64,000 bases of DNA from Rhodoferax sp. PAMC 29310 (lineage in GTDB: Bacteria; Pseudomonadota; Gammaproteobacteria; Burkholderiales; Burkholderiaceae_C), in contig NZ_CP072852.1 in assembly GCF_017948265.1 (NCBI RefSeq), positions 4,092,001 to 4,156,000 of the forward strand, read 5' to 3'. Both the position numbers and the translations under genes were made by a program. Positions 3,535-18,396 of the stretch are shown here, piece by piece (the first letter of the stretch is position 1; each line of letters begins with the position of its first letter). The notes beneath the pieces are model-generated. The model worked only from the letters and a program-made list of their open reading frames with translations, did no database searches and was not told the origin of the DNA.

Positions 3535-3680
3535 AGGTGTGACGCGGCAGTTAATATGGAGGAGTATCTTTTAACATTAGGCTATGAAGTGGCGGGTCAA
3601 ATTTCGATGAATCTCGTTTTAAGCGAGTTGATTTGATAGAAATTGGTCAGTGAATTTCCAGAAGATAACAGGGACGTTTC

Positions 3681-5063
3681 TTGATAAAAATATTCAATCA
3701 CTACTTTCACAAGCGTACGCTGCTGAGAATACTGCTCGACCTGATGTTGGTAATTGCAACGCTCATAATTGCTATTGTGCGCAATATTTCCGACCTTGAG
3801 TCAGTGTACTTAAGCGTTTTGATCGCCTCCCTATTGCTGGGATTCGGCATCTTTGTGATCAACACTGGCCTAGGGTTTTACCAGAGAACCAATGGGCGGA
3901 CATGGCTTCAAGCTGCAGCCCGGGGATCTGTATCTTTCTTCCTGTCGATTCCTTTGGTTTACGGGGTGTTTCGTCTGTCGCCTGTGAAGGTTGAGAATGG
4001 AAAAGATTTTCTGCTGGTGCTGATGCTGGGCATTGGAATCATGCTGTTGAACAGGGTCTATGCGAATCACGGCACCAGCCTTTCCCATATGCGGCGTCGA
4101 GTCATGATTTTTGGCGCGGGCCCCCGGGCCAAGCAGGCCGGAAAAATACTGTTGGCTGCTGACCCCAATGTCGACTTGGTTGGCTATTACGCCAGTCCGA
4201 ACGACGTCTTGGAGGAGGTGTCGGCGTGGGGAGTTCTGGCGCCAAAAATGACGTTGACAGACATGGTCCGAAAGGAAAAGGTGGATGAAATCGTCGTCGC
4301 CGTGTCGGAGCGTCGAGGTGGCAGCATGCCCTTGCGTGAACTCCTGGATTGCAAACTACAGGGGGTTCACGTCATTGACCTCTCCACCCATTTTGAGAAA
4401 ACCTTGGGCCAAATCAGACTCGATGCGGTCAATGCCGGTTGGTTGGTCTTTAGTGACGGTTTTGCGCAAGGGTGGATTCGATCCCTCGTGAAGCGTGTCT
4501 TCGATATCGTCTGTGCAGCAGTACTTATTCTGTTGACCATTCCGGTCATGTTAGTGACGGCGGTGCTTATTCGGATGGAAAGCCGAGGGCCCATTTTCTA
4601 CATCCAGGAGCGAGTAGGTCTCCGTGGTCAATTGTTCAATGTCATCAAGTTTCGAAGCATGCGAACCGATGCCGAAAAAGACGGAAAACCAGTGTGGGCG
4701 GCGGCTTCCGATGATCGGACAACCCGGGTGGGTCGAGTGATCAGGAAATCGCGTATCGACGAACTCCCCCAGCTTTTCAACGTACTGGGTGGCAGTATGA
4801 GTCTGGTCGGCCCTCGACCAGAGCGGCCATATTTTGTCGAAAAACTGACCAATGAGATTCCCTATTTTGCCGTTCGCCATAGTATCAAGCCTGGTTTGAC
4901 CGGCTGGGCTCAGGTGAGATACCGGTATGGTGCGTCAGTGGAAGATTCGGCAGAGAAGCTTCAATATTACCTCTATTACGTCAAAAATCACTCACTGCTG
5001 CTGGACCTCGTCGTCATATTTGAAACCGTCGGTGTCGTTTTAATGGGCTGGGGAGCGCATTAA
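3681..5063 (+). CDS. EpsB/EpsE-type polyprenyl-phosphate sugar-1-phosphate transferase (PEP-CTERM/XrtA system)
   Basis: The protein has 460 residues: four or five N-terminal transmembrane segments (to ~135), a Rossmann-like middle domain starting with RRVMIFGAGP, and a C-terminal bacterial sugar transferase domain from KRVFDIVCAA. The last part carries KFRSM, SRIDELPQL, LVGPRPERP and KPGLTGWAQV, all family hallmarks. It transfers a sugar phosphate from UDP-sugar to undecaprenyl phosphate, the first committed step of the repeat unit. TTG at 3681 is chosen because an AGGGA box lies just upstream and the resulting N-terminus (IFNHYFHKRT) is what XrtA-linked members show. The kinase gene follows after 1 bp. 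Confidence 0.9.
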   Translation: MIKIFNHYFHKRTLLRILLDLMLVIATLIIAIVRNISDLESVYLSVLIASLLLGFGIFVINTGLGFYQRTNGRTWLQAAARGSVSFFLSIPLVYGVFRLSPVKVENGKDFLLVLMLGIGIMLLNRVYANHGTSLSHMRRRVMIFGAGPRAKQAGKILLAADPNVDLVGYYASPNDVLEEVSAWGVLAPKMTLTDMVRKEKVDEIVVAVSERRGGSMPLRELLDCKLQGVHVIDLSTHFEKTLGQIRLDAVNAGWLVFSDGFAQGWIRSLVKRVFDIVCAAVLILLTIPVMLVTAVLIRMESRGPIFYIQERVGLRGQLFNVIKFRSMRTDAEKDGKPVWAAASDDRTTRVGRVIRKSRIDELPQLFNVLGGSMSLVGPRPERPYFVEKLTNEIPYFAVRHSIKPGLTGWAQVRYRYGASVEDSAEKLQYYLYYVKNHSLLLDLVVIFETVGVVLMGWGAH

Positions 5064-5064
5064 T

Positions 5065-7161
5065 ATGCTTCTGACAGCGTGGAGTTTTGGGCTGGTTGGT
5101 GTCACTTATCTGGCCTTTTTTCTGCGTCTGCTTCAGTTAGGCTATCTGAGCGCACCGCAAGAGCTACCCAAGGTTTTGCTCTTGGTGGCTGTGGGGGGCT
5201 GCACCATTTGGGGCGCGGCGGGATTTGCCCTTGTACAGACGTCGGATCCGGTCTATGGGCTGGTCAGCGCGTTGGCTGACATTTTTCGGTATGGCGCCTG
5301 GTTTGCCTTTCTTTTGGCCTTGTATCGGCCAAGTGCAGTACAAAAGTCGTCACGCCGTTTTGGACAACTTGCATCGGTTGCGATCGTGCTGGTTTCCTTT
5401 AGTTTTTTTTCCGTGTTGATGTTGTGGTTGGGTTCGAATCAATGGGGCGATCCATCTCGTTTCATGCTTTTTAGCTCAATGGCGCAGTCGGTCTACGGCA
5501 TGGTATTGCTTGAGCAAATTTTTAGAAACGTCGAAGAAGATTCCCGCTGGAACCTCAAGCCGCTTTTTCTGGGGCTGGCTGGCGGATTCTTGTTTGATTT
5601 GTACATTTTCTCGCAGGCGGTGCTGTTCAATAGTTTGGATCAAGACGCATTGAGTATCAGGGGAGGCGTCCATGCGTTGGTTGCACCCTTACTAGTGCTG
5701 TCAAGCACCCGCCGATCTGACTGGATTCAGAAAATCCGCCTGTCTCCCAAGGCGGCTTTTCACTCGGCGACCTTGCTGATTGCCGGCCTCTACCTGCTCT
5801 TCATTTCAGGCATCGGTTACTACATCCGCTATTTCGGCGGGGATTGGGGGCGCGCGCTTCAGCTGGGTCTCGTGTTCCTCGCGTTGGTTGTCCTGATGGT
5901 ATTGGCGCTGTCAGGTGCATTGAGGGCGAAACTGAGAGTGATGGTTGGAAAGCATTTTTTCCGCTACCGCTACGATTACCGCGAGGAATGGCTCCGATTT
6001 ACCAATGCCTTGTCTGTCGGGGACTCCCCTCAAGCGATGGGACAGCAGGTGGTTCGAGGACTGGCCGATATGCTCGAGAGTCCGGGTGGGGGCTTGTGGA
6101 TGCAGGGCCAGAATGGAGGCCAATTGACGCAAGTCGCACACTGGAATTTCCCGGCAACGAATGAGCAGGTGGCAATAAGCTCTTCACTTTGTCAGTTCCT
6201 GGTGAGCAGTGGCTGGGTTGTCAATCTTGGGGAGTTCCGCTCATTTCCTCGCCGCTATGAGGGGCTGGCCTTGCCCGAGTGGCTGCGCAATGCGGCGTCC
6301 GCCTGGCTGGTTGTGCCATTGTTTGTTGGGGACGATTTGATTGGGTTTGCCATATTGGCGACCCCCAGAACGCACATTGACGTCAATTGGGAGATTAATG
6401 ACCTGCTCAAAACGGCAGGCCGGCAAGCTGCCAGTTTTTTGGCTCAGATGCAGACCACAGAGGCCTTGCTTGAGGTCAGAAAGTTCGATTCATTCAACCG
6501 GATGTCCGCGTTTGTCGTTCATGACCTGAAAAATATAGTGACCCAGCTTTCACTCATGATGAAAAACGCCAAGCGACTGAGCGGCAACCCGGAGTTCCAG
6601 CAGGACATGTTGATGACGGTCGAAAATTCATTGGACCGCATGCGTCAATTGATGCTTCAATTGCGAGAGGGCGCGACGCCTCCGGGCAAGGCCTTTGGCG
6701 TCAATCTTGAGGAAATTGCGACACGAATTGCCGGCATCGCCCTGCGCCGTGACAGGGTTCTTGAAATTGAGGTCAAAGAGGCCGTACTGACCCGGGGGCA
6801 TGAAGAACGATTGGAGCGCGTCATTGGCCACATGGTACAAAATGCTTTCGATGCAACCAACGCAGGCGGGCGTGTTTGGCTCTCTCTGGAAAGGGCCAAT
6901 GGGCAGGCTCAAATCGTTGTTGGTGACACAGGACAAGGGATGACACCAGAATTCATCCAGAATCGTTTGTTCAAGCCTTTTCAAACAACCAAGTCAGCGG
7001 GCATGGGCATCGGCGCGTATGAGAGTTTCCAGTACGTCCAAGAGTTGGGCGGAAGAATTGACGTGCAAAGTGAGCCCAATGTGGGGACAACGGTCACTAT
7101 TCAATTGCCGCTATTTGAAACCCGGAAGGAGTCAGACCTCCACACGAAAGACGTTTCATGA
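5065..7161 (+). CDS. prsK: PEP-CTERM system sensor histidine kinase PrsK
   Basis: Membrane histidine kinase of 698 residues: about eight N-terminal hydrophobic helices (to ~290), a GAF-like domain (~305-455), a phospho-acceptor helix with VVHDLKNIV (His near residue 486), then the HATPase core with N-box QNAFDA, G-boxes GDTGQGM and GMGIGAYES. The very long multi-helix sensor plus GAF is characteristic of PrsK. It overlaps the following response regulator by 4 bp (ATGA), so the two are translationally coupled. In XrtA systems this pair controls extracellular matrix/PEP-CTERM gene expression; the signal is not known. Confidence 0.9.
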   Translation: MLLTAWSFGLVGVTYLAFFLRLLQLGYLSAPQELPKVLLLVAVGGCTIWGAAGFALVQTSDPVYGLVSALADIFRYGAWFAFLLALYRPSAVQKSSRRFGQLASVAIVLVSFSFFSVLMLWLGSNQWGDPSRFMLFSSMAQSVYGMVLLEQIFRNVEEDSRWNLKPLFLGLAGGFLFDLYIFSQAVLFNSLDQDALSIRGGVHALVAPLLVLSSTRRSDWIQKIRLSPKAAFHSATLLIAGLYLLFISGIGYYIRYFGGDWGRALQLGLVFLALVVLMVLALSGALRAKLRVMVGKHFFRYRYDYREEWLRFTNALSVGDSPQAMGQQVVRGLADMLESPGGGLWMQGQNGGQLTQVAHWNFPATNEQVAISSSLCQFLVSSGWVVNLGEFRSFPRRYEGLALPEWLRNAASAWLVVPLFVGDDLIGFAILATPRTHIDVNWEINDLLKTAGRQAASFLAQMQTTEALLEVRKFDSFNRMSAFVVHDLKNIVTQLSLMMKNAKRLSGNPEFQQDMLMTVENSLDRMRQLMLQLREGATPPGKAFGVNLEEIATRIAGIALRRDRVLEIEVKEAVLTRGHEERLERVIGHMVQNAFDATNAGGRVWLSLERANGQAQIVVGDTGQGMTPEFIQNRLFKPFQTTKSAGMGIGAYESFQYVQELGGRIDVQSEPNVGTTVTIQLPLFETRKESDLHTKDVS

Positions 7162-8519
7162 CCGCAGAAAAAACTCGTTCACTACTGATTGTCGAAGATG
7201 ATCTCGCACTCCAAAAGCAGATCAAATGGTCGTTGGATCGTTTTGAGTCTGTCACTGCCGATGACCGGGAAAGTGCGCTGGTTCAGATGCGCAGGAGTCA
7301 GCCTGCCGTCGTGACCATGGATTTGGGATTGCCGCCTGATGCCGACTCGGTGTCAGAGGGTTTTCGGTTGCTGGAACAAATCATTGCCTTCGATCCAGAC
7401 ATCAAAGTTATTGTCTTGACAGGTCAAAACGATCAGGCAAATGCCTTGCGCGCCATTGCCATGGGTGCCTATGACTTTTTTGCCAAACCCTTTGAGCCTG
7501 ATCTGTTGAACTTGACCGTTGAGCGCGCTTTCAGGTTATTTGAGCTGCAGGCGGAAAATCGGCGGCTGCGCGAGCTGCATCAGCCGGAATCGTTGTCCGG
7601 ATTGGTGACGAAAGACCCGGAAATGATGCGCGTTTGCCGAACCATTGAGAAGGTTGCCAGCAGTAATGCAACGGTTCTATTGCTGGGAGAGAGTGGCACG
7701 GGGAAGGAAATATTGGCGCGGGGCCTGCATCAAGCCTCAGCCCGGCGTTCCGGAAAGTTCGTCGCTATCAACTGTGCCGCCATCCCTGAAAATCTGCTGG
7801 AAAGTGAGCTTTTTGGCTACGAAAAGGGTGCGTATACGGGAGCCGCGAAAACGACATTGGGCAAGATTGAGACCGCTAACGGTGGCACGTTGATGCTGGA
7901 TGAAATTGGGGATTTGCCGCTTTCGCTGCAAGCCAAGTTGTTGCGATTTTTGCAGGAACGGACGATTGAACGGTTGGGGGGTCGACAGGAGATTCCCGTT
8001 GACGTCCGCGTGGTGTGTGCGACCCACCAGAATCTCAAGGAGCAAACCGGCGATGGTCGTTTTCGGGAGGACCTGTATTATCGATTGGCCGAAATCGTGG
8101 TCGATATTCCCCCATTGCGTGATCGGATTGGTGACGCAGCGCTGCTGGCACATGCATTTGCGCGCCGATTCTCTAAAGAGCAAAATCGTTCAAACATGAC
8201 GTTGGCTGAGTCAGCGGTGCGCGCAATCGAGAAATATGATTGGCCAGGCAACATTCGCGAGCTTGAAAATTGCATCAAGCGCGCAACCATCATGGCAGAT
8301 ACAAACCAGATCACCAGCGATGATTTAGGTTTAAAAAGCCTTGCGGTGAATCCAAGTGATGACATGCTCGAACTGCGTGTCATTCGTGACAATGCCGACA
8401 AGGAGGCCATCGTCAAAGCGATGGGACGTGTGAATGGCAATATAGTGAAAACGGCAGAACTACTGGGTGTCAGTCGGCCAACACTTTATGACTTGATGCA
8501 CAAGCTTGGGTTGAAATAG
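7158..8519 (+). CDS. prsR: PEP-CTERM-box response regulator PrsR, sigma54-dependent activator
   Basis: NtrC-type activator of 453 residues. The receiver domain has phospho-acceptor Asp55 (VTMDLGLPP) and Lys110. The AAA+ domain has Walker A GESGTGKE (177-184), Walker B LMLDEI (245-250) and the sigma54-contact loop as GAYTGA (224-229) rather than the commoner GAFTGA. A Fis-type helix-turn-helix ends the protein (~430-453, TAELLGVSRPTLYDLMHKL). It should act on RpoN promoters after phosphorylation by the adjacent PrsK. A matching -24/-12 site lies at 11434-11449, two genes downstream, and is the best candidate target in this window. Confidence 0.92.
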   Translation: MTAEKTRSLLIVEDDLALQKQIKWSLDRFESVTADDRESALVQMRRSQPAVVTMDLGLPPDADSVSEGFRLLEQIIAFDPDIKVIVLTGQNDQANALRAIAMGAYDFFAKPFEPDLLNLTVERAFRLFELQAENRRLRELHQPESLSGLVTKDPEMMRVCRTIEKVASSNATVLLLGESGTGKEILARGLHQASARRSGKFVAINCAAIPENLLESELFGYEKGAYTGAAKTTLGKIETANGGTLMLDEIGDLPLSLQAKLLRFLQERTIERLGGRQEIPVDVRVVCATHQNLKEQTGDGRFREDLYYRLAEIVVDIPPLRDRIGDAALLAHAFARRFSKEQNRSNMTLAESAVRAIEKYDWPGNIRELENCIKRATIMADTNQITSDDLGLKSLAVNPSDDMLELRVIRDNADKEAIVKAMGRVNGNIVKTAELLGVSRPTLYDLMHKLGLK

Positions 8520-8575
8520 CAGGTTCCAGTGGCCTGGAGTCGCCCGACCAGTTGAGTAAATTTCAGGGGTGAAAA

Positions 8576-11350
8576 ATGAAAATTAGAAATCGTACCGTCA
8601 GCGCAGTGGCTTCGAGCCTGCTAGCAACTTTGTTATTGATTAGTTGTAGTGAGAAGCCCGAGGACTTGATTGCTTCGGCCAAGGCCTACCTTGCCAAAAA
8701 CGACAGCAAAGCTGCAGTCATTCAAATCAAGAATGCGCTCCAAGCAGATCCGAGCCAACCAGAGGCGCGGTTTCTTTTGGGTTCTGCGTTGTTGGCTAGC
8801 GGTGACCCGGTGGGTGCCGAAACTGAATTGAGAAAAGCGCTGGATTTGAAGTATCCGATGGATCAGGTCGCGCCGAAGTTGGCTGAGGCACTTTTGGCCC
8901 AAGGGCAGCCCAAAAAAGTTACCGAGGAGTTATCCTCCGTGGTGGTGGCCGATCCCTCGGGTCTCGCCGAGATGAAGACGCTACTGGCGGCCGCTTATGC
9001 CGGGCAGGGCAAGACAGAACTCGCCCAAGGTGCGCTCAATGCCGCACTTCAGGCAGACCCCAACTATGCACCTGCTTTGCTGGTCCGTGCGCGAGAAAAA
9101 GCCGGGTTGAGGGATTTTGAAGGGGCGATGGCCATTGTGGATGATGTTATTTCCAAGTCGCCGAAGAATCATGAGGCATGGAAGATGAAGGGAGACCTGC
9201 TGCTTTACGCGCAAGATCAACGAGATCCTGCCTTGCAGGCCTACCTGAAAGCCGTCGAATTCAAACCGGATTTTCTGGCGGCCCATGCCGCTGTAACGAC
9301 GCTGCAGTTGCAACAAGGAAAGCTGGACGCTGCCAGTCAACAAATTGAATTGATGAAAGGGTTTGCCGCCAATCATCCGCAGACCAGGTTTCTACAGGCG
9401 ACACTGGCCTATCAACAAAAGGATTTGAAACAGGCGAGAAGTCTGCTGCAACAGGTGTTGCTGGCGGCCCCAACCAATGTTCAGGCGCTCCAACTAGCTG
9501 GTGCTGTTGAACTTCAACTGAACTCACCTGTTCAGGCTGAGGCCCACCTGAGCAAGGCGCTTCAACTGGTGCCAGACCTCCCGGTGGCGCGACGGTTTTT
9601 GGTGGTGACTTACCTGCGTGCTGGCCAAACCGCCAAAGCGCTTGAGACGCTTCTGCCGGGTCTGAATCGTGACAATGTGGACCCGGAGTTGCTATCGATT
9701 GCCGGTGAAACATACCTGCTGAACGGCGACGTCAACAAGGCGGAGGAGTACTTTTCCAAAGCCGCCGCCCAGTCCCCTGACGATGCCCGCAAACGGACCT
9801 CTCTGGCCATTACGCACCTGATGGCCGGCGCCGTCGATTCCGCGTTTGTAGAACTTCAGAATATTGCCGCCTCTGATGCAGGTACCACTGCTGACATGGC
9901 TTTGGTCAGCGCTCACCTTCGGCGAAAAGACTATGACAAGGCGCTCAAAGCCATTGACGGCCTTGAAAAGAAGCAGCCTGGCAAGCCCCTTGCGGCGGTG
10001 TTGAGAGGTCGAACACTGCTGGCTAAACGAGATACATCTGGTGCCCGGACGAGCTTTGAGCGGGCGGTCGAACTGGATCCCCTCTTTTTTCCAGCTGTTG
10101 CCAGCCTCGCTGCGTTGGACTTTATTGAGAAGAAACCCGACGACGCCAGAAAACGCTTTGAGGCGTTGGTGAGCAAAGATCCCAAAAACAGCCAGGCTTT
10201 GCTTGCTTTGGCAGAGTTGGCTGCTCGATCAGGTGCTGGCAAGGAGGAGGTAGTGGCGGCCATCAAAAAGGCTGTCGCGGTCAATCCGACCAACGCCGTC
10301 GCCAGGTTGATGCTGATTGACTACCACCTGCGCAACAAGGATGCGCGCCTGGCAATAGCGGCGGCTCAAGAAGGCGTGACGGCGTTGCCAGACAGTCTGC
10401 AAATGCTGGATGCCTTGGGGCGTTCTCAACAAGTCGCCGGGGAGTTCAATCAGGCGGTGACCACTTTCAATAAATTGGTCGCAATGCAGCCTAACTCTCC
10501 GCAACCCTATATGCGGTTGGCTGACGTGCACATGGCCGCCAAGGACAAAGTTGCAGCTGCGGCTAGTCTGCGCAAGGCCCTTGAAATCAGACCCGATCTA
10601 CAACAAGCACAGCGTGGCACCATCATGCTGGATGTTGACGGAAAAAATTTCAAAGGGGCCATAACTACTGCACGCTTGATGCAAAAGCAATCTCCGAAAG
10701 ACGCGCTAGGGTATGTTCTGGAGGGCGATATTCACGCTGCTCAGAAGGATTGGAATAGTGCCGCATCTGCCTATCGTGAGGGTGTTTCTAAGTTTTCCGC
10801 GCCCGAGTTGGCAATCAAACTGCACTCCGTCCTGCTTGCCGCCGACAAGACATCCGAAGCAGAGAAATTCTCGGCATCCTGGCAAAAAGACCACGCCAAT
10901 GACGCAGCTTTCCTCCTTTATTTGGGCGAAGGGGCGATCGCTCGAAAGGATTACAAGGCCGCTGAAAAAGCGTATCTGAACATCATTAAATTACAGCCAA
11001 CATTCGCCATTGCCTACAACAACCTGGCTTGGGTCACTGCCAAATTGGGTACAGACGGCGCCATTGCGTACGCCGAAAAAGCTTTGGAGTTGGCGCCCAA
11101 CCAGCCCGCGTTCATGGACACGTTGGCGGTCCTTCTGTCGGACAAAGGCGATCATGCCAAAGCCGTGAAGCTGCAAACCGAAGCCATCAAGGTTCAACCA
11201 GACAACCCCATCTTCATGCTCAACCTCGCCAAGATCTATATCAAAGGCGGTAACAAAGCGTTGGCTAAACGCGAGTTGGACGAGCTGGCAAAATTGGGCA
11301 GTAAATTTGGCGGGCAGGCTGAGGTTTCTGCTTTGTTGAATGGGTTGTAG
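8576..11350 (+). CDS. prsT: XrtA/PEP-CTERM system TPR-repeat lipoprotein PrsT
   Basis: A large (924 residues) protein made almost entirely of tetratricopeptide repeats. The N-terminus is a lipoprotein signal with lipobox LIS-C (Cys24), followed by at least fifteen TPR units (for example KAYLNIIKLQPTFAIAYNNL near the end). It is probably anchored in the outer membrane facing the periplasm and, by analogy with other TPR lipoproteins of polysaccharide export, organises assembly or export partners. It lies 56 bp downstream of prsR, the order seen in other XrtA loci. No terminator is evident before the next promoter. Confidence 0.9.
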   Translation: MKIRNRTVSAVASSLLATLLLISCSEKPEDLIASAKAYLAKNDSKAAVIQIKNALQADPSQPEARFLLGSALLASGDPVGAETELRKALDLKYPMDQVAPKLAEALLAQGQPKKVTEELSSVVVADPSGLAEMKTLLAAAYAGQGKTELAQGALNAALQADPNYAPALLVRAREKAGLRDFEGAMAIVDDVISKSPKNHEAWKMKGDLLLYAQDQRDPALQAYLKAVEFKPDFLAAHAAVTTLQLQQGKLDAASQQIELMKGFAANHPQTRFLQATLAYQQKDLKQARSLLQQVLLAAPTNVQALQLAGAVELQLNSPVQAEAHLSKALQLVPDLPVARRFLVVTYLRAGQTAKALETLLPGLNRDNVDPELLSIAGETYLLNGDVNKAEEYFSKAAAQSPDDARKRTSLAITHLMAGAVDSAFVELQNIAASDAGTTADMALVSAHLRRKDYDKALKAIDGLEKKQPGKPLAAVLRGRTLLAKRDTSGARTSFERAVELDPLFFPAVASLAALDFIEKKPDDARKRFEALVSKDPKNSQALLALAELAARSGAGKEEVVAAIKKAVAVNPTNAVARLMLIDYHLRNKDARLAIAAAQEGVTALPDSLQMLDALGRSQQVAGEFNQAVTTFNKLVAMQPNSPQPYMRLADVHMAAKDKVAAAASLRKALEIRPDLQQAQRGTIMLDVDGKNFKGAITTARLMQKQSPKDALGYVLEGDIHAAQKDWNSAASAYREGVSKFSAPELAIKLHSVLLAADKTSEAEKFSASWQKDHANDAAFLLYLGEGAIARKDYKAAEKAYLNIIKLQPTFAIAYNNLAWVTAKLGTDGAIAYAEKALELAPNQPAFMDTLAVLLSDKGDHAKAVKLQTEAIKVQPDNPIFMLNLAKIYIKGGNKALAKRELDELAKLGSKFGGQAEVSALLNGL

Positions 11351-11433
11351 ATGTGTCGAATATTTTTACAGTTGTTCTGATAAATGCAGTTGGAACACGT
11401 GGTAACCAAATAGAATCAATTACTTAGGCTTGC

Positions 11434-11449
11434 TGGCGTGATAATTGCT
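11434..11449 (+). promoter_or_regulatory. Predicted sigma54 (-24/-12) promoter
   Basis: The sequence TGGCGTGATAATTGCT matches the RpoN consensus TGGCACG-N4-TTGCW at all positions except two. The invariant GG (11435-11436) and GC (11447-11448) are separated by exactly 10 bp. The expected start point is near 11460, giving a ~16-nt leader with a GAGAGGTG ribosome site before the ATG at 11476. A sigma54 activator (PrsR) is encoded 3 kb upstream. Seen in sequence; activity is inferred. Confidence 0.75.
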
Positions 11450-11475
11450 TCCGAGTTGGGAGAGGTGAAACAATC

Positions 11476-12162
11476 ATGAATTCAAATAACGCAGGCCAGT
11501 TCGATCGCCCAAATGAATTGCGCCGCAAGCTGTTTCGCGGGGTGTCGGGCGGGGTCGGGGTGCTACTAGCAGTGCAAGCCAAGACGGCGCTTGGGGGTAG
11601 TTGCGCAAGTCCGTCGGCTATTCTCAGCGGTAACACCAGCCCGCGGCCGGGTACCGGTGACACTTGTTCGGGTGGCTGGTCTCCTGGCTTTTGGAAGGTG
11701 CCCCAACATGCAACCGATTGGGGGTTGGCTGGCGCGACTTATCCAACCTTCAAAAAGACGGTGGTGACCTGCACTAGTAGCGGCATGAAAGGACTGACGC
11801 TCAAGGACATAAATACCCCGGGTACCCTGCTCAGCGCGGCAGGTTTTGGGACTGGCGGGGCTCCTGCAGGCACGGGAATATGGGCAGTAATCGCTTTCCC
11901 AGGCAGTTTTACCGGTGGACAATTGTTGCGTCATTTGGCAGCAGCTTGGCTCAATGCGGGACGCTTCACCAGTGCCAGCAATCGTTATCCTTTAAGTCGT
12001 TCTCAGATTATTGCAATGTGGGATGCAACGAAGAGTGGTGGTTTGTACATGCCCAATGGCGCTAGTGTCAGCCAGGGCTGGTCTGCGACTCAGGTCATTA
12101 GTTACATTGAAGGCATGTACGACATCAATTCCGGTGACCCCGCGCTCTGTACGACCCCCTAG
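11476..12162 (+). CDS. Predicted exported 'SPGFWK' protein, probable sigma54/PrsR target
   Basis: Not a named family that I recognise. The 228-residue product starts with a Tat-like signal: twin arginine at 16-17 (ELRRKLFRG), then a weakly hydrophobic stretch to ~40. The mature part has four cysteines (43, 64, 99, 225), fitting two disulfides, and the motif CSGGWSPGFWK (64-74). That motif, with a later HLAAAWLNA helix (153-161), resembles the 'GYWKNHP...AALLNA' domains of some bacterial surface proteins. No PEP-CTERM tail is present. It lies directly behind the sigma54 site and 58 bp ahead of the PqqD/HprK/nucleotidyltransferase genes, so it could be the substrate or structural product of that cassette. 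Export is moderately sure; function unknown. Confidence 0.7.
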   Translation: MNSNNAGQFDRPNELRRKLFRGVSGGVGVLLAVQAKTALGGSCASPSAILSGNTSPRPGTGDTCSGGWSPGFWKVPQHATDWGLAGATYPTFKKTVVTCTSSGMKGLTLKDINTPGTLLSAAGFGTGGAPAGTGIWAVIAFPGSFTGGQLLRHLAAAWLNAGRFTSASNRYPLSRSQIIAMWDATKSGGLYMPNGASVSQGWSATQVISYIEGMYDINSGDPALCTTP

Positions 12163-12220
12163 TGGGCGGAAGTTGGAGGTGGCAAATTATTCAAATCGAT
12201 AGTCTCTTGCTTTCGCGCCG

Positions 12221-12559
12221 GTGACACTCAAAAGTTCCTTCGTCGAGTCGCCCGGGTGGTTGTCGATTGCGCCGGGGCGTGACTTGCGTCTTTCGCCAAA
12301 CTGGTCCTGCTCGGATGCCACGATTTTGTTTGACCGAAACTCTGGGGATTATTGGGTAATTTCTGCCTTGGCCAATGCCGTTGTGCGACTATTGCAAGCA
12401 GGGTGTGGCATGGCGTACGTTGACCTTGAGCGCCAACTCAGCGGACTGGCGCCGGAGACGGATCTTCTGCCGACATTACGCAGTCTGGCTGATAATGGTT
12501 TGCTCCGACCCTTGCAGGGCTCAATATCTCACGCAACACTGTGTAGATCTTCCGATTGA
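12221..12559 (+). CDS. PqqD-like protein of the HPr-rel-A cassette
   Basis: Small protein of 112 residues with the PqqD/winged-helix pattern: a strand turn around FDRNSGDYWVIS followed by a helix NAVVRLLQAG and a C-terminal helix pair with a leucine-rich end. PqqD-like proteins bind leader peptides for RiPP-type modifying enzymes. Combined with the HprK-like kinase that follows by a 4-bp overlap (TTGA), it matches the cassette known as the HPr-rel-A system. The start is GTG at 12221 without a strong ribosome site, so the N-terminus is uncertain. Its peptide partner is not established; candidates are the 228-residue protein upstream or the 52-residue ORF downstream. Confidence 0.7.
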   Translation: MTLKSSFVESPGWLSIAPGRDLRLSPNWSCSDATILFDRNSGDYWVISALANAVVRLLQAGCGMAYVDLERQLSGLAPETDLLPTLRSLADNGLLRPLQGSISHATLCRSSD

Positions 12560-13416
12560 TCGATACCGTCTTACATATCGCGCCATTCAATGTGCGAGTT
12601 CGCTCGCCGATCGCCGCGGTGATTCGACATCTTGAATTTTTCTATGAGGGTTACCGGCGCGGTGAGCCGGGGTCATTCATTGATTTTGATGTTCAGGTGC
12701 TGCAGGGTAAGGGACTTCGGCGCTGGTGGCGACCGCAGGTGCGCTTTTTGCTCGACGGCATGGAGTCTTTCTATCCTTTGCCAGCGGCGCAATCCGCGCC
12801 GCTGTTTGAATGGGGTTTGAACTGGTGCGTGGCGAACCGGCCGCTAGGTTACCTGGTTATGCACGCTGGATTGTTGGCCCGCGCAGGGCAGGCCTTGATG
12901 ATGCCGGGTTTTCCGGGCGCGGGAAAAAGCACCTTGTGCGCCGCCTTGTGTTTGATGCAGGACTGGCAACTGCTTTCGGATGAGCTTGCCATTCTGGACC
13001 CGGGCTCTGGTTTGATGCAGCCGCATCCGCGCCCCATTAGTCTAAAGAATGCTTCGGTCGATGTAGTCACAGCATTCCCGCAAGCCCGTCTTGGGCCCCT
13101 GTATCACGACACCCGCAAAGGTTCGATTTCCCATGCTGCCTGTCCTGCGAGTTCAGTGGCGGCGGCAGGCACCGTGGCGCGGGTTCGATGGATAGTGCTG
13201 CCGCGTTTTGTGGCAGGCGCCGTGCCGCATTGCGAGAAAATCAGCCGGGCCGAGACATTTTCCCTCATCTCCGAGCAGTCATTCAACAAGGAGCGCATGG
13301 GCGAAGTCGGCTTCGACGCGCTGTGTGGCATGCTCAGCGGAGCGGACTGCTACCAGATTGTTTTTGGCTCAACAGCTGACGGTCTGAAGCTCATTGGCGA
13401 TATCACAGGGTCATGA
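12556..13416 (+). CDS. HprK-related kinase A
   Basis: Kinase of 286 residues related to the catalytic domain of HPr kinase/phosphorylase. MHAG (102-105) precedes the P-loop GFPGAGKST (118-126), followed by the acidic SDELAIL (141-147). The N-terminal domain of true HprK is absent and no HPr/PTS gene is nearby, so it is unlikely to act on HPr. Relatives in lasso-peptide clusters phosphorylate serine of a small peptide; a similar protein/peptide kinase role here is inference. TTG start, overlapping the PqqD-like gene by 4 bp; the stop overlaps the next start by 4 bp. Confidence 0.82.
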   Translation: MIDTVLHIAPFNVRVRSPIAAVIRHLEFFYEGYRRGEPGSFIDFDVQVLQGKGLRRWWRPQVRFLLDGMESFYPLPAAQSAPLFEWGLNWCVANRPLGYLVMHAGLLARAGQALMMPGFPGAGKSTLCAALCLMQDWQLLSDELAILDPGSGLMQPHPRPISLKNASVDVVTAFPQARLGPLYHDTRKGSISHAACPASSVAAAGTVARVRWIVLPRFVAGAVPHCEKISRAETFSLISEQSFNKERMGEVGFDALCGMLSGADCYQIVFGSTADGLKLIGDITGS

Positions 13417-14513
13417 CGCGGCATCTCAGCAGCTCAGAATTGATCGCCGTGCTGGGTGACCCGTGCAGCGCACGCCAGTTTGACGCGGAGCAATGGTCGG
13501 CATTGGTGAATATTGCGCGTCGTACGAACCTGCTCGGCGTTTTGGCTGAGCGCTTGAATAGCGCCGGTGTGTCGGCGGGCCCTCTGGCAAATCGTCATTT
13601 TGAGGGCGCCCGACAACTTAGTGAGCGCCAGCACCGGTCGGTTCTTTGGGAAGTCCATCAATTAGATGCCGCACTGGGACATCTGCAAATACCGATCCTG
13701 TTGCTCAAGGGCGCTGCCTACGTCATTTCTGGGCACGTCGTTGGCAAGGGAAGGCTCTTCGGCGACATCGATATTTTGGTTCCGCGTGCTTCTCTGGGCG
13801 ACGTTGAAAGCCGCCTAATGCTTGCCGGTTGGGTAAGCGCGACGACCAGCGCCTATGACCAGAGATATTACCGAAAGTGGATGCATGAGCTTCCGCCGAT
13901 GACCCACTTGCGCCGCGGAACCGTGTTGGATGTTCATCACACCATTCTTCCGTTGACGGCCCGAAACGCTCCGGATCCCAAACAGATCATCGATCGGTCA
14001 TCGTACCTACCAAATTTCTCGATGATGCGAATCCCATCCCCTGAGGATCTGGTTATTCACAGCATTACACATCTGGTACATGAAGGTGAAATGCACAATG
14101 GGCTGCGCGATTTGAACGATATCGACTGCATGCTGCGGCGGTTTTCCTTGGTGCCCGGGTTTTGGGATCGCTTTGTTGGTTGCGCAGTCGGCAATGATCT
14201 CGCCGGGCCGGTTTGCTTCGGCCTGAGTCTGGCTCGGCGCTTTTTTGGCACGCCCATCCCATCCGCCGTACTGACCCAATTGTCGTCCACAGGGCGTGGC
14301 CAACAGACCACACGCTGGCTCGAGGCGGTCTACGTCAGGGCGATTGAAGCCGCTGGCGAGGATCATCGCAGCATCACAATGGATCTGGCGAAGTGGTTGG
14401 TCTATGTGCGATCCCATTGGCTGCGCATGCCTTGGACGCTGATGATTCAACACCTGTCGATCAAGGCGTGGGTCCGCTGGCGCGCCAGTGTGGGAAGTGC
14501 TCGCGAGTCGTAA
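13413..14513 (+). CDS. Uncharacterised nucleotidyltransferase-fold protein (NTP_transf_5 type)
   Basis: Protein of 366 residues with the signature of the polymerase-beta-like nucleotidyltransferase superfamily: LLLKGAAYVI, then GKGRLFGDIDILVPR, where the two aspartates of GDIDIL would bind metal. A later VLDVHHTIL could give the third acidic residue, and PSPEDLVIHSITHLVHEGEM is typical of this family. It is the third member of the overlapping PqqD-HprK-NTase set, starting with ATG inside the end of the kinase gene. Whether it transfers a nucleotide, and to what, is unknown. The family is also frequent in lasso-peptide and exopolysaccharide loci. Confidence 0.78.
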   Translation: MTRHLSSSELIAVLGDPCSARQFDAEQWSALVNIARRTNLLGVLAERLNSAGVSAGPLANRHFEGARQLSERQHRSVLWEVHQLDAALGHLQIPILLLKGAAYVISGHVVGKGRLFGDIDILVPRASLGDVESRLMLAGWVSATTSAYDQRYYRKWMHELPPMTHLRRGTVLDVHHTILPLTARNAPDPKQIIDRSSYLPNFSMMRIPSPEDLVIHSITHLVHEGEMHNGLRDLNDIDCMLRRFSLVPGFWDRFVGCAVGNDLAGPVCFGLSLARRFFGTPIPSAVLTQLSSTGRGQQTTRWLEAVYVRAIEAAGEDHRSITMDLAKWLVYVRSHWLRMPWTLMIQHLSIKAWVRWRASVGSARES

Positions 14514-14585
14514 TATGTCGCTTCGATGTAGTGAAGCCAAGCCCGGTCAAGTGACAAAATTTATATAAATTCATAGAGTGTGGAA

Positions 14586-14744
14586 ATGAAATCCAAGTCA
14601 ATTTTTCCAATGCTAATCGGGCATATTGCACAAAAACCGCTGGCTGGACTAAAGCCAAAGTCGGCATCAAGGGCAGACCCGAAAGAGGTCCGTTCCAATC
14701 ATAGTGCCGATAGCATGCTGGTTGTTGCATTCCGGGCGCGTTAG
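14586..14744 (+). CDS. Possible 52-residue peptide gene downstream of the HprK/PqqD cassette
   Basis: A short open frame starts with ATG 72 bp after the nucleotidyltransferase stop, preceded by GTGTGGAA as a weak ribosome site, and ends at TAG 14742. The peptide begins MKSKSIFPML and is basic and serine-rich in the middle (KPKSASRADPK), with a hydrophobic end (MLVVAF). It is in the same direction as the PqqD/kinase genes, so a small substrate peptide is conceivable. There is no homology I recognise and the coding evidence is weak. Confidence 0.3.
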   Translation: MKSKSIFPMLIGHIAQKPLAGLKPKSASRADPKEVRSNHSADSMLVVAFRAR

Positions 14745-14985
14745 TTAGTCCCCTCTTTTTCACTGACTGACCGAGATACATTTAACCCCTCGCTTGCGCG
14801 CATCCCCTGCGCTTCCACGATGGCGCTGAAATAGGCGCGTTAGGAGGACTCTCTGACATTAAAGGCTTCACAGGAAAACCGGATGGCAAGGGCTGAGGGC
14901 GCCTGGGCGAGAAATGCCGCTTTGCTAGGACGGCGTCAGCCTTCATAATGATTTGGATAGGGCGATTTTGATGAATGGGAGCCGC
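14745..14985. other. Intergenic region, no gene seen
   Basis: This ~240 bp stretch between the small ORF and the protease gene has no convincing coding frame. An imperfect inverted repeat (GTTAGTC at ~14744 and GACTGAC at ~14764) flanks a CTTTTT run and might be a weak terminator. No clear sigma70 or sigma54 site was found for the protease. Confidence 0.4.
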
Positions 14986-15744
14986 ATGAAAACCAGATGG
15001 ATGCTAGTTTTGATGGTCTGTAGCCTGTTTGGTGGGCCACTTCGTGCCGATATGGTCAGCACGATTGCCAGGGTCAAGCCCTCGGTCGTCATCGTGGGGA
15101 CTTTCAAAAGTACAAACAGCCCACGTTTCAATTTGCGGGGAACGGGTTTTGTCGTGGGAAATGGCAACTTGGCGATTACCAATGCACACGTCCTGCCCGA
15201 CCCCAGCGACGTCGATGTTGCCGCTGATCTGGTTATTCAGATCAAGATCGGTGAAGATAGATTTCAAATCCGACCTGTGACCGTGCTTGATATTGACGTC
15301 GCCCATGACCTTGCCCTGCTTCGTTTCGATGGGCCACCCTTGCCGCCGGTGTCCATTGGAGATTCTGATCAGGTACGCGAAGGGCAACCAATTGCGTTTA
15401 TGGGTTTTCCGATTGGTGGGGCTTTGGGCTTCTCGCCGGTTACACACCGCGGCATGATCTCGTCAATTGCTGCGGCAGCGCTGCCGACTCCAACTTCGTC
15501 ACAACTCAACGCCAAAATGGTCAGGAGCCTGCGTGCAGCCAGCTTTGACATCTTTCAGCTCGACGGAACGGCCTACCCCGGCAATAGCGGAGGGCCCTTG
15601 TTCGACCCTGATAGCGCCGATGTCCTCGGCGTGGTCAATATGGTGTTTATCAAGGGTACTCGGGAGTCCGCTTTGACGCATCCTTCAGGGATTACTTACG
15701 CCATTCCGGCGAAGCATGTGGTCCAGCTGTTACAGGGAAGATAG
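14986..15744 (+). CDS. Secreted trypsin-like serine protease (HtrA/S1C-like, no PDZ)
   Basis: With the ATG at 14986 (GGGAG five bases upstream) the product is 252 residues with a classic signal peptide ending PLRA. The catalytic triad is visible: His68 in TNAHVL, Asp108 in AHDLALL and Ser201 in GNSGGPL. This is the chymotrypsin fold of DegP/HtrA proteins, but the chain ends after the protease domain with no PDZ domain. It probably works in the periplasm or outside the cell. It lies between the HprK cassette and the acyltransferases, convergent with the latter, so a role in matrix protein processing is possible but unproven. Upstream ATG/TTG starts (14971, 14953) would lengthen the N-terminus. 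Confidence 0.85.
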   Translation: MKTRWMLVLMVCSLFGGPLRADMVSTIARVKPSVVIVGTFKSTNSPRFNLRGTGFVVGNGNLAITNAHVLPDPSDVDVAADLVIQIKIGEDRFQIRPVTVLDIDVAHDLALLRFDGPPLPPVSIGDSDQVREGQPIAFMGFPIGGALGFSPVTHRGMISSIAAAALPTPTSSQLNAKMVRSLRAASFDIFQLDGTAYPGNSGGPLFDPDSADVLGVVNMVFIKGTRESALTHPSGITYAIPAKHVVQLLQGR

Positions 15745-15772
15745 CTTCTTTTTCATTCGGTCGCTCATGGGC

Positions 15773-17095
15773 TTACTTCGCCCCATCGCGTAAAAATTGG
15801 GTTGCATTGTCAAGATCCTCGTGAGTGGACCCTTCCTTCAAAACGCTGACCAACTTACGCCAGGGAAGATCGGCAGTCTCCAGATGAAAACCATAGAAGC
15901 CTTGTTCACCTTCAAACTTCCCTCTCATAATTCGAACTCTTAGATTTGAGGTCTCATTCTTTCCGAGCCGAATGCAGGCTTGCCCCCAGATACCCTCTGG
16001 CAATGGAACTTTGGACCTAGCCAGAAAGCCATCATCGGATAACTCCACCACCTTCAAGGAATAAGACTTGGCGTTGGGGGATTCGCCAACCACAAAACTA
16101 CCGGGGCACTTCAATGAATAGCGCTGATGTTTCCTCTGCCGAATTCGAAAGTCAGTTTCAGAAAATATGGTCGGTAAATGCGCTTTGTATTGCGGCAGGT
16201 TATAGATGGAGTGCAATAAGCCCCGGTCACGGTCATCCAGCGAATCAAAGGTATTGGTCCGCTTGTTGAAAAAATAGTCAAGCAAGTCCGGCGTCATAAC
16301 CGGATCATTGGTGGTGAAGTAGCGGCGACCGGGCATCACGATATTGCGCAACTGAGAGCGCACAAAATAGTGGTATAAGTTTTTTCGGCGCGATTTGTTG
16401 CGATAGGCATCTCTCAGCAAGCCCGGGGCGTGGTGTAAGTCGACACTTGCCCCAACGGCTGGCGCGCCGTTGACGAAGTCATAGTTGTCAACGGTTTCCT
16501 GCTTCAGACGTTCAAAAAACAGAAGGGATTCGTACATCTCTATTCGGTCTGGGTTAACCGCAATTACCAGGTGTCTGGTATCAAAGAACGTAGAGCAGTA
16601 GTCATACATGAACTTCATCAACGGGAAAAGAATCATGCCCCCGGTGTTTCTAAACTTGGGGTGAACCGCCAGCGCCGACACCTCAGCGAGCCGGCCCTTC
16701 TTCTCTCGGACTTCTTGCAAGTTGAAGACAGACTGCAATGGGAACCCAAAGACACTTTCACGTATCAAAGACAGGGTGCCAACCACCTCTCCGTCATATA
16801 AGGCGCAAAGCGTGGTGGTTGTCGGCAAGGCGTGGTAAATGGTGACGCGCATGCCCGACGGGTGTGGCGCCATGAAGCCGCTGCCAACATAGGCGTCATG
16901 CAACAGTCTGAAGCAAGCCTCCAGCTCCTCCTTGGTCTGGGCAATTTTGAGCACCAGGCGTTTGTCTGGGTTAGGGTCGCAATCAACGAAAGACCGGTAA
17001 ATGGCAAAACGAAAGCGCCGGGGAAAATACGAGAAAAGCTTGCGCAACGCCTGCCGCAGAAAACGTTTAACAGGTGATGTTCTCGATTGGGTCAT
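15773..17095 (-). CDS. FeeM-like N-acyltransferase with C-terminal PilZ domain (copy 2)
   Basis: Protein of 440 residues. Residues ~45-240 form a GNAT/autoinducer-synthase-like domain of the FeeM (N-acyl amino acid synthase) type: ETAFR-like CFRLLHDAYV, then RVTIYHALPTTTTL, VGTLSLIRES and LAEVSALAVHPKFR. Residues ~321-412 form a PilZ domain with the c-di-GMP-binding arginine pair RKHQR (321-325) and ELSDDG, where the usual first Asp/Asn of (D/N)xSxxG is Glu. It should use acyl-ACP or acyl-CoA to acylate an amine, with activity or location possibly set by c-di-GMP. Its start overlaps the stop of the homologous upstream copy by 4 bp. FeeM-type acyltransferases are common companions of exosortase systems. 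Confidence 0.8.
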   Translation of the reverse strand: MTQSRTSPVKRFLRQALRKLFSYFPRRFRFAIYRSFVDCDPNPDKRLVLKIAQTKEELEACFRLLHDAYVGSGFMAPHPSGMRVTIYHALPTTTTLCALYDGEVVGTLSLIRESVFGFPLQSVFNLQEVREKKGRLAEVSALAVHPKFRNTGGMILFPLMKFMYDYCSTFFDTRHLVIAVNPDRIEMYESLLFFERLKQETVDNYDFVNGAPAVGASVDLHHAPGLLRDAYRNKSRRKNLYHYFVRSQLRNIVMPGRRYFTTNDPVMTPDLLDYFFNKRTNTFDSLDDRDRGLLHSIYNLPQYKAHLPTIFSETDFRIRQRKHQRYSLKCPGSFVVGESPNAKSYSLKVVELSDDGFLARSKVPLPEGIWGQACIRLGKNETSNLRVRIMRGKFEGEQGFYGFHLETADLPWRKLVSVLKEGSTHEDLDNATQFLRDGAK

Positions 17096-18396
17096 GTGGC
17101 CAGAAATCGAGTGGCGTACTCAAGATCATCGTAGGTGGTGCCCTGGCTCATGGCGTTGACAAACTTTCGCCACGGCAGGTCAGGCTCGGCCAGCTTGAAA
17201 CCGTAAACGCCTCCCGTTCCCTCTTCGCTGCCGCGAACGACCATCACCTTGAGCGCCGACAACTCGGTCTTGCCGAGCTGAATACTGGCATCACACCATG
17301 TATCCACCGGAAGCGGCATGGCAGACACTGCCTTGAAGCCGAATTCCGATAATTCAGTCACCACGACGTCATAGGACTCCTGAATGATGGACGACTGAAC
17401 GGTTAGCGTTCCAGGGCATTTCACAGAGTAGCGGGTGTGCTGTCTCAGCATCTCCTGATCGGTCATTGCCACAGGAACCGGGGGCAAGACATGTTGATAC
17501 GGCTTGAGCTCGTAAATTGCGTGCAGCAGCGATTTTCGGCGGGTATCCAAATCCCTGAAAACCTGGGTCCGTTGATTAAAAAAATAGTCCAGCAGGTCCG
17601 GTGTCATGACTGGGTCATTGGTGGTGAAGTAACGTCGACTGGGCACCTGGATATTAGGCAGAACCGTCTTGACGAAATAATTATGCAAATTCTTGTTGAA
17701 TCTCTTCTTGCCGTAGGTTTTTTCAAAAACCTCTGGCGCTTTGTACAAGTCCAACGACGCGCCCACCGCTGGCGCTCCATTTGCAAAATCGTAGTTATCC
17801 ACCGTGTTTTCCTTCAATCGCTGAAAGAAAAGCAATGACTCATACATCTCAATGCGGTTGGGGTTCACGGCAATCAACAAGTGGCGGGTGTCAAAGAAGG
17901 TCGTGCAGTAGTCATACATGAACTTCATTAACGGAAAGAGAATCGCGCCACCCGTCTTCCTGAATTTGGGATGCACCGCCAATGCAGAGACCTCGGCCAG
18001 ATTTCCGTGCAGCTGGCGCACAGGCGTCAGGTCAAAAATAGTCTGTAGCGGGAACCCAAACAAGCTTTCCCGTATCAGTGACAGAGTGCCCACCACTTCA
18101 CCGTCAAACTTGGCGCACAAAGTCGTGGTCGTCGGCAGGGCATGGTAAATCGTCACCCGCATTCCAGAGGGGTCGGGGCGCATAAAGCCACTGCTGACAT
18201 AGGCATCGTGCAGCAGCTTGAAGCAGGCCTCAAGCTCCTCTTTTGTTTCTGCAATTTTCAGGACCAGTCGCGGGTCAGGATTGGGATTGCAGTCAACAAA
18301 GGAACGGTAGATGGCAAACCGCGCATCACGGGGCAGAAACGAGAATAGCTGTCGAAGACTTTGGCGAAGCGATTTTCTGGCTTCTGAATTTTTCAT
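17092..18396 (-). CDS. FeeM-like N-acyltransferase with C-terminal PilZ domain (copy 1)
   Basis: First gene of the tandem pair; 434 residues, clearly homologous along its whole length to the next gene (shared RFAIYRSFVDC, GMRVTIYHALPTTTTLCA, AEVSALAVHPKFR, FFDTRHL, RRYFTTNDPVMTPDLLDYFFN). The PilZ part starts at RQHTR (318-322), keeping the RxxxR pair, and has ELSEFG in place of (D/N)xSxxG. A strong ribosome site GGGAGGAG precedes the ATG. The pair arose by tandem duplication and has diverged substantially, suggesting different acyl or amine substrates. Regulation is not visible; a GGCTCA/TGAGCC hairpin lies at 18429-18443 in the leader. Confidence 0.8.
   Translation of the reverse strand: MKNSEARKSLRQSLRQLFSFLPRDARFAIYRSFVDCNPNPDPRLVLKIAETKEELEACFKLLHDAYVSSGFMRPDPSGMRVTIYHALPTTTTLCAKFDGEVVGTLSLIRESLFGFPLQTIFDLTPVRQLHGNLAEVSALAVHPKFRKTGGAILFPLMKFMYDYCTTFFDTRHLLIAVNPNRIEMYESLLFFQRLKENTVDNYDFANGAPAVGASLDLYKAPEVFEKTYGKKRFNKNLHNYFVKTVLPNIQVPSRRYFTTNDPVMTPDLLDYFFNQRTQVFRDLDTRRKSLLHAIYELKPYQHVLPPVPVAMTDQEMLRQHTRYSVKCPGTLTVQSSIIQESYDVVVTELSEFGFKAVSAMPLPVDTWCDASIQLGKTELSALKVMVVRGSEEGTGGVYGFKLAEPDLPWRKFVNAMSQGTTYDDLEYATRFLAT

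Follow-up and report, generated by a model that had tools for sequence, protein, structure and literature searches.

What does an enzyme related to HPr kinase modify when no partner of the phosphotransferase system (PTS) is encoded near it? This question is raised by a four-gene cassette of Rhodoferax sp. PAMC 29310 (Pseudomonadota; Burkholderiales), situated in a stretch of 64,000 nt of contig NZ_CP072852.1 (positions 4,092,001 to 4,156,000), which we call the window. Segment 11476-14513 of the window holds four genes in the same direction, coding for an exported protein of 228 residues, a PqqD-like protein, an HprK-related kinase and a nucleotidyltransferase. The PqqD, kinase and nucleotidyltransferase genes overlap: the stop codon of the PqqD-like open reading frame (ORF), which itself starts with GTG, overlaps the TTG start of the kinase, and the kinase and nucleotidyltransferase ORFs share 4 nt. 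An earlier note on this DNA had described the gene set accurately, including the overlaps, the kinase P-loop at residues 118-126, the GDIDIL motif in the last protein of the trio, and the four Cys (residues 43, 64, 99 and 225) and SPGFWK motif of the exported protein; the cassette is real, and the end that the note gave it, 14744, lies 231 nt past the last stop codon. We found that, in every testable kinase genome of two samples, the kinase is accompanied by a protein whose twin-arginine leader is of a similar kind. The whole is probably a leader-guided protein modification and export cassette.

The linkage between kinase and partner carries this conclusion. A protein search with the 228-residue protein gave 242 relatives at E 0.01, and 34 of the 120 relatives listed were used for alignment A1. 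In a sample of 300 genomes of the order, the A1 profile had matches in 22 genomes, and in 22/22 the match was on the kinase contig, within ~3 kb of the kinase. A kinase scoring over the cut-off was present in 50 genomes of this sample. When the surroundings of all these kinases were fetched and inspected, 50/50 were found to adjoin an ORF that carries a twin-arginine leader; its general pattern is RRRFxKxGLAAxxVILTLASRPVLG. A regular expression for such leaders gave many wrong-frame hits, and the order-set partners were then chosen by eye; those of L068, L086 and L088 came from a second look, and that of L073 from the reading frames of the gap before the kinase. The partner gene stood before the kinase in 44 loci; in the other six (L055, L071, L088, L096, L102 and L103), it came directly after the transferase.

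An objective test was made with a leader profile built from 49 order-set leaders and run on held-out kinases outside the order. In a phylum sample of 398 genomes, the kinase was present in 61, of which 55 were outside the order and 53 were testable, the other two being at a contig edge. The leader profile found an adjacent partner ORF at 47 of the 53 kinases, where a hit had to be among the six best of its locus, carry the two arginines, score >4 bits and lie 200-1250 nt before the kinase (L118 was counted although its hit is on the other strand). Seven of the 47 hits scored <10 bits (six loci of group f85 and L146). The leader ORF was the best among all six-frame ORFs of the stretch in 45 held-out loci, and a stricter count, taking the top hit alone, on the sense strand and between -1300 and -400, gave 44 loci. 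For the remaining six genomes, a whole-genome search found the partner encoded elsewhere in 6/6; in G551 it was found by the leader part only (E 5e-6, leader score 36.9 bits). The relocated partner was adjoined by a PqqD gene in four of these six (L242, L244, L246 and L247). As for the other two, in G504 the PqqD gene stays beside the kinase, and in G379 it was not found.

The same picture was seen in the best 80 named loci, a third set that shares some genomes with the order set and spans Pelomonas, Aromatoleum, Massilia, Duganella, Dechloromonas, Sedimenticola, Thioalkalivibrio, Methylovulum, Magnetovibrio and others. Here, the top leader hit was 600-1300 nt upstream of the kinase in 75/80 loci. 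Among the other five, two had their best hit downstream and on the opposite strand, one had it further upstream, one was cut by the contig end, and in the fifth, L208, all that was found of a leader partner was a fragment in another part of the genome, at the edge of a contig. The proposal of the earlier note that the secreted protein belongs with the trio is therefore upheld by neighbourhood co-occurrence (22/22 genomes with A1-profile matches, then 50/50 and 53/53 partners). The 228-residue family that it named as the partner does co-occur with the trio, as a single branch of a partner family that is much wider. The observation in that note is thus confirmed and larger than stated, and its interpretation is partly supported.

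Across the sets, the partners resemble each other in their twin-arginine leader, and the secreted part varies. Motifs were counted on 169 unique partners, left after identical proteins among 174 had been merged. Class A, with SGNxS- or SPGYW-like motifs, comprises 94 proteins, the window's 228-residue protein included. Class B comprises 45 proteins and is defined by a C-terminal [ST]C[WFY]xS[FLIV] motif, which makes the conservation of that motif within the class circular. No protein was in both classes, and 30 were in neither, four of them having a weaker variant of the C-terminal motif. Right after the leader, class A proteins have a Cys in 92/94 (C43 in the window protein) and serines corresponding to S47 in 94/94 and to S51 in 93/94; the class A motif filter touches S51 and does not touch S47. 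In class B, a Ser is located at about the third position (+3) after the leader end in 41/45. A set of 41 diverse, hand-chosen partners (A3) showed no convincing NCBIfam or Pfam family, the few hits being single and weak. Examples of class B are the partners of L105-L118, L122-L126 and L129-L132, with a C-terminal motif of the SCWTSF type; this motif could be a second modification site or an anchoring site. The mature part of the L057 partner consists mostly of Ser, Ala, Gly and Asn, unlike the other classes. At L201, two good leader hits (34.6 and 28.2 bits) were observed near a single kinase, a hint from the sequence that one cassette may serve more than one substrate.

The 228-residue protein itself had no family match in Pfam or NCBIfam. 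In A1, whose family was gathered by homology, R16 and R17 are each present in at least 90% of the sequences, and S51, G52, N53 and S55 are invariant. The leader has features of the twin-arginine translocation (Tat) type, namely the twin arginines, a weak hydrophobic stretch and a small-x-small end, and TatC is encoded in the genome; the cleavage point, after ALG, was judged by eye. The AlphaFold2 (AF2) model has a mean predicted local distance difference test score (pLDDT) of 79.7. From about residue 60 on, the protein is modelled with confidence as a domain; the N-terminal part before it, which carries S47 and S51, is loose (pLDDT <50 for residues 44-53). No structure in PDB resembled the modelled fold in the searches made.

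The PqqD-like protein is, by its predicted fold, a leader-binding domain of the kind called RRE (recognition element of ribosomally synthesized and post-translationally modified peptides, RiPPs). Its AF2 model has a pLDDT of 86.2, and the best Foldseek matches were 5v1v, 5v1u and 6jx3, the complexes of the lasso-peptide proteins TbiB1 and TfuB1 with leader peptides (best value E 2.9e-3, probability 1.00), followed by other RiPP enzymes with such domains. The family profile likewise matched TfuB1 (E 1.4e-6) and TbiB1. The window protein scored 24.8 bits against a profile of other loci, from which its own sequence and L160-L166 were excluded, and 43/43 aligned PqqD examples matched TIGR04353 at E 0.01. 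A profile search found PqqD beside 165 of 185 kinases. Of the 20 kinases without it, 12 have an adjacent leader gene, six do not, and two are at contig edges. For the seven loci without an adjacent leader gene, PqqD was absent beside the kinase in six.

Both enzymes have conserved residues. The kinase is a member of TIGR04352 (HprK_rel_A; 343.6 bits, where the cut-off is 200) with the P-loop GFPGAGKST. Residues H103, K124 (in the P-loop), D142 and E143 are invariant in 32/32 hand-chosen kinases (alignment A2), and the kinase profile matches HPr kinase 1jb1 (E 0.001). The product of the third gene of the trio matches PF14907 with 167.5 bits, and its D118, D120 and D173 are kept in 50/50.

The genomic setting points to the extracellular matrix, as the earlier note had supposed. 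The cassette is located directly behind prsT, inside an exopolysaccharide/PEP-CTERM (exosortase-A/PrsKRT) locus, and the gene for exosortase XrtA lies on the same genome, ~31 kb ahead of the window. XrtA scored over the cut-off in 73 of the 300 genomes of the order, in 47/50 of those with the kinase and in 26/250 of those without it (Fisher p 2.7e-32, kinship uncorrected). In the phylum sample, XrtA was present in 25/61 kinase genomes compared to 10/337 others (hand-counted). A sequence of the sigma-54 pattern, TGGCGTGATAATTGCT, starts 42 nt before the 228-residue gene. We scored such sites with simple hand-made weights, using base shuffles, the other strand and other windows as controls. Within 200 nt upstream, sites with a score of at least 18 were found for 71/166 partner genes, compared to 2.2 expected from shuffles; the other windows of partner loci gave 407/9710, and the reverse strand of the upstream stretches gave 3/166. 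For the partner genes of the order, the figure was 34/48 compared to 137/3163 for other windows of those loci, and it was 3/7 in group f53 and 33/71 in the named set. Among the beta- and gammaproteobacteria, exosortase A accompanies the cassette, and a sigma-54 promoter often precedes the partner gene. PEP-CTERM genes have been reported with such sigma-54 sites, together with PrsK, PrsR and PrsT (PMC1569441), and a PEP-CTERM gene for floc formation has been reported to depend on RpoN (PMC9850573).

The mechanism that we propose for a leader-guided cassette would run as follows. The secreted protein would be made with a long leader that is both a Tat signal and a docking tag for the PqqD-like RRE. 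The RRE would present the protein to the HprK-like kinase, which would phosphorylate one of the conserved serines that closely follow the leader: S47 or S51 in the window protein, and the Ser at about +3 in class B. The PF14907 enzyme might then transfer a nucleotidyl or sugar group onto the phosphate. After that, the modified and folded protein would be exported by Tat, lose its leader and join the exopolysaccharide/PEP-CTERM matrix. Export by Tat would fit the modification, because the latter needs cytoplasmic nucleotides. In beta- and gammaproteobacteria, sigma-54, probably with PrsK/PrsR, would switch the partner gene on together with the matrix. These data suggest that the enzymes chemically mark the secreted partners before export, perhaps for building the slime that keeps cells together. 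The fullest version, in which this is a widespread RiPP-like system for folded proteins, with a leader that acts as RRE tag and Tat signal, a matrix protein that is phosphorylated and then phospho-glycosylated or nucleotidylated before export, and a mark that is needed for the exopolysaccharide matrix, is offered tentatively; we rate its chances somewhat below even.

Several observations weigh against this mechanism. With respect to the leader, none of the 41 diverse partners (0/41) matched a Tat-signal model of NCBIfam at E 0.01, and Pfam gave a single weak hit to a narrow Tat-signal model, UCR_Fe-S_N; the assignment of the partners to Tat is a prediction from the arginine pair. The window's PqqD-like protein scored 18.3-18.4 bits against TIGR04353 (E 0.0031), under the cut-off of 35, and the PqqD profile found nothing beside the 12 kinases mentioned above whose leader gene is adjacent. 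There is no one serine motif common to all partner classes, and in class B the C-terminal motif might be the real target. The step assigned to the PF14907 enzyme is the weakest one. The nucleotidyltransferase was missing beside 12/55 held-out kinases, some of them at contig ends. The two precedents for its action, PsmN and LppN, which are taken up below, are likened to it by their described role and not by family assignment; LppN was reported inactive in a heterologous host (PMC13381572), and for PsmN a host enzyme may have added the hexose, according to reviewers (PMC9266682, PMC8498205). Sigma-54 sites were seen in 1/30 of the XrtA-negative phylum genomes and in 0/10 of groups f85 and f118. 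Because 36 of the 61 kinase genomes of the phylum sample lack XrtA over the cut-off, XrtA is often found with the kinase without being required.

The same observations can be read in other ways. Leader-binding chaperones are known for some Tat substrates, and the trio could be a chaperone or proofreading set of this kind, in which the PqqD-like protein holds the leader and the P-loop protein times folding or cofactor loading with the help of nucleotide, with no covalent change. A constant Tat-like leader in front of highly variable mature parts would suit such a set, and the conserved Cys could bind a cofactor. We consider it unlikely, since the kinase residues H103, K124 and D142 and the transferase carboxylates (50/50) are conserved and related RRE-kinase sets are reported to modify their substrates covalently. 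The kinase and the transferase could also act on a polysaccharide, a lipid carrier or a PEP-CTERM protein, with the secreted protein as a co-regulated structural partner. What makes this conceivable is the position of the window cassette inside an exopolysaccharide locus, along with the XrtA and sigma-54 linkage. Still, the partner linkage persists where XrtA and the sigma-54 sites are absent, the PqqD-like RREs of solved complexes bind ribosomal leaders, and the PqqD gene adjoins the partner gene in 4/6 cases where the partner is away from the kinase; all this leaves the idea quite improbable.

A classical HPr kinase that regulates the PTS was already disfavoured, and we regard it as very improbable. 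It would account for the distant sequence match to HPr kinase, and an HPr gene does exist in the genome. On the other hand, this sole HPr gene match is ~1.37 Mb from the kinase, the kinase falls into a separate equivalog (TIGR04352), and its usual neighbors are the PqqD-like protein, the nucleotidyltransferase and the leader protein. The earlier note had stated that no PTS partners are nearby, and this held for the 13 window genes scanned (339-18396).

The coordinates of the cassette and its surroundings are given in the table.

Table. Features of the cassette and of its surroundings in the window
Feature	Positions	Strand	Basis or remark
Exosortase-A-associated decarboxylase	339-1583		Setting, window scan
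Gene	1564-3534		No match at E 1e-20
EpsB2, XrtA/PEP-CTERM glycosyltransferase	3681-5063		Setting, window scan
PrsK, XrtA/PEP-CTERM histidine kinase	5065-7161	+	TIGR02916, 810.2 bits
PrsR, PEP-CTERM-box response regulator	7158-8519	+	TIGR02915, 734.9 bits
PrsT, XrtA/PEP-CTERM tetratricopeptide repeat protein	8576-11350	+	TIGR02917, 853.7 bits
Sigma-54 (-24/-12) type promoter	11434-11449	+	TGGC-N7-TTGC; such sites are enriched before the partner genes of related loci
228-residue exported protein, presumed substrate	11476-12162	+	Relatives, alignment A1, AF2 model
Leader of the 228-residue protein, residues 1-40	11476-11595	+	R16/R17, weakly hydrophobic stretch; alignment A1, leader profile
Start of the mature protein, residues 43-57	11602-11646	+	C43, S47, S51, GN, S55; S47/S51 proposed as acceptors
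PqqD-like RRE (predicted)	12221-12559	+	AF2/Foldseek fold, family profile
HprK-related kinase A	12556-13416	+	TIGR04352, alignment A2, match to HPr kinase 1jb1
PF14907 nucleotidyltransferase	13413-14513	+	Pfam; D118, D120, D173 invariant in 50/50
Trypsin-like protease, recurrent neighbor	14953-15744	+	PF13365; role uncertain

A homolog of the trypsin-like secreted protease was seen in the fetched flank of 18/50 order kinase loci (the window's own included) and of 4/55 others, often ~2 kb from the kinase. It might process the partner or the matrix. Further downstream, the genes 15773-17095 and 17092-18396 (minus strand) code for tandem paralogs that carry the FeeM domain of N-acyl amino acid synthases (PF21926); in one of them, the C-terminal end gives a weak match to PilZ. 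Of the other order loci, one (L098) has a homolog of the first paralog near its kinase.

How does this cassette compare with known systems? The kinase and PqqD pair corresponds to the HPr-rel-A system of NCBIfam (TIGR04352 kinase with TIGR04353 PqqD). The window kinase is a clear member, with the PqqD-like gene directly upstream, and the window's PqqD-like protein is outside the curated limit of TIGR04353. The NCBIfam descriptions consulted name no substrate, and the partner family described here (41 members) had no useful match to any NCBIfam or Pfam model.

The enzyme logic is already known from Bacillota, where it is reported for paeninodin, pseudomycoidin and the LPPs. The HprK-like kinase PadeK phosphorylates a serine of the paeninodin lasso precursor, and in pseudomycoidin PsmK and PsmN give a phospho-hexose, the nucleotidyltransferase gene being held responsible for one or two hexoses on the phosphate (PMC9266682, PMC8498205). 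The likeness to lasso-peptide tailoring that the earlier note had pointed out is well founded, as the nearest solved folds to the window's PqqD-like protein are lasso B1 RREs with their leaders and the kinase and nucleotidyltransferase are combined as in pseudomycoidin. The reported acceptor in these lasso peptides differs, being the C-terminal Ser of a short peptide. Neither a lasso macrolactam cyclase nor a B2 protease was recognized among the 13 window genes scanned. The earlier statement that the locus has no cyclase or protease thus holds for the cyclase among these genes and, with the trypsin-like protease nearby, can hold for proteases only in the sense of a dedicated lasso leader peptidase.

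The LPPs are closer still in their composition. Leader-guided phosphorylation by an HprK-like kinase is reported for them, in clusters with an RRE and a nucleoside triphosphate (NTP) transferase that occur near capsule genes; LppK phosphorylates Ser3 of the LPP core (AQSNWK) (PMC13381572, Nat Commun, May 2026). In the main text of that report, the terms Pseudomonadota, Proteobacteria, twin-arginine and TIGR04352 do not occur (PMC13381572). Both systems have a discrete RRE, an HprK-like kinase, an NTP transferase, nearby polysaccharide loci, and precursors (a presumed role for the partners here) with a constant leader and a variable remainder. Also, Ser3 of the LPP core may have a counterpart in the conserved Ser near the mature N terminus of the partners, to judge from their sequences. 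LPP clusters, as described, differ in having an SpI-like peptidase, an MsbA-like transporter, a YxxP leader motif and linear peptides as products, while the system described here has a Tat-like arginine-pair leader, a predicted folded domain (in the window protein) and conserved Cys, and belongs to Pseudomonadota. On inspection, the YxxP or [Y/W]xxPx[LVIAFY] motif was absent from the window leader, which has FxxP and the two arginines instead. No SpI-like peptidase or MsbA-like transporter was recognized among the 13 window genes scanned, and no further search for them was made. The cassette shares its architecture with these kinase-RRE precedents, and from this analogy we infer a related chemistry.

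With the XrtA/PEP-CTERM system, the cassette shares the adjoining PrsK, PrsR and PrsT genes and the upstream sigma-54 sites reported there (PMC1569441, PMC9850573). It differs in that no PEP-CTERM tail is apparent in the 228-residue protein (no NCBIfam match) and the XrtA linkage is not universal. In the open-licence literature, we found no title or abstract opening that describes this cassette or its partner. The earlier note had expected a modification of this kind to be new; the kinase-PqqD pair is already an NCBIfam system and a leader-guided kinase has been published for the LPPs, and folded, Tat-exported proteins as substrates of such enzymes would be new. New as well, as far as we have seen, are the protein partner with its Tat-like leader, the finding of such a partner in every testable kinase genome of two samples and the tie to the XrtA/sigma-54 matrix loci.

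An annotated kinase system that was an orphan thus gains a candidate substrate, seen in 50/50 kinase genomes of the order and in 53/53 testable ones outside it, and is tied to exopolysaccharide loci in Beta- and Gammaproteobacteria. It also gains a clear prediction that can be tested, as to which protein, which serine and which partner. If this holds true, RRE-guided phosphorylation would reach beyond the small peptides known from Bacillota and include folded proteins that Pseudomonadota export by Tat.

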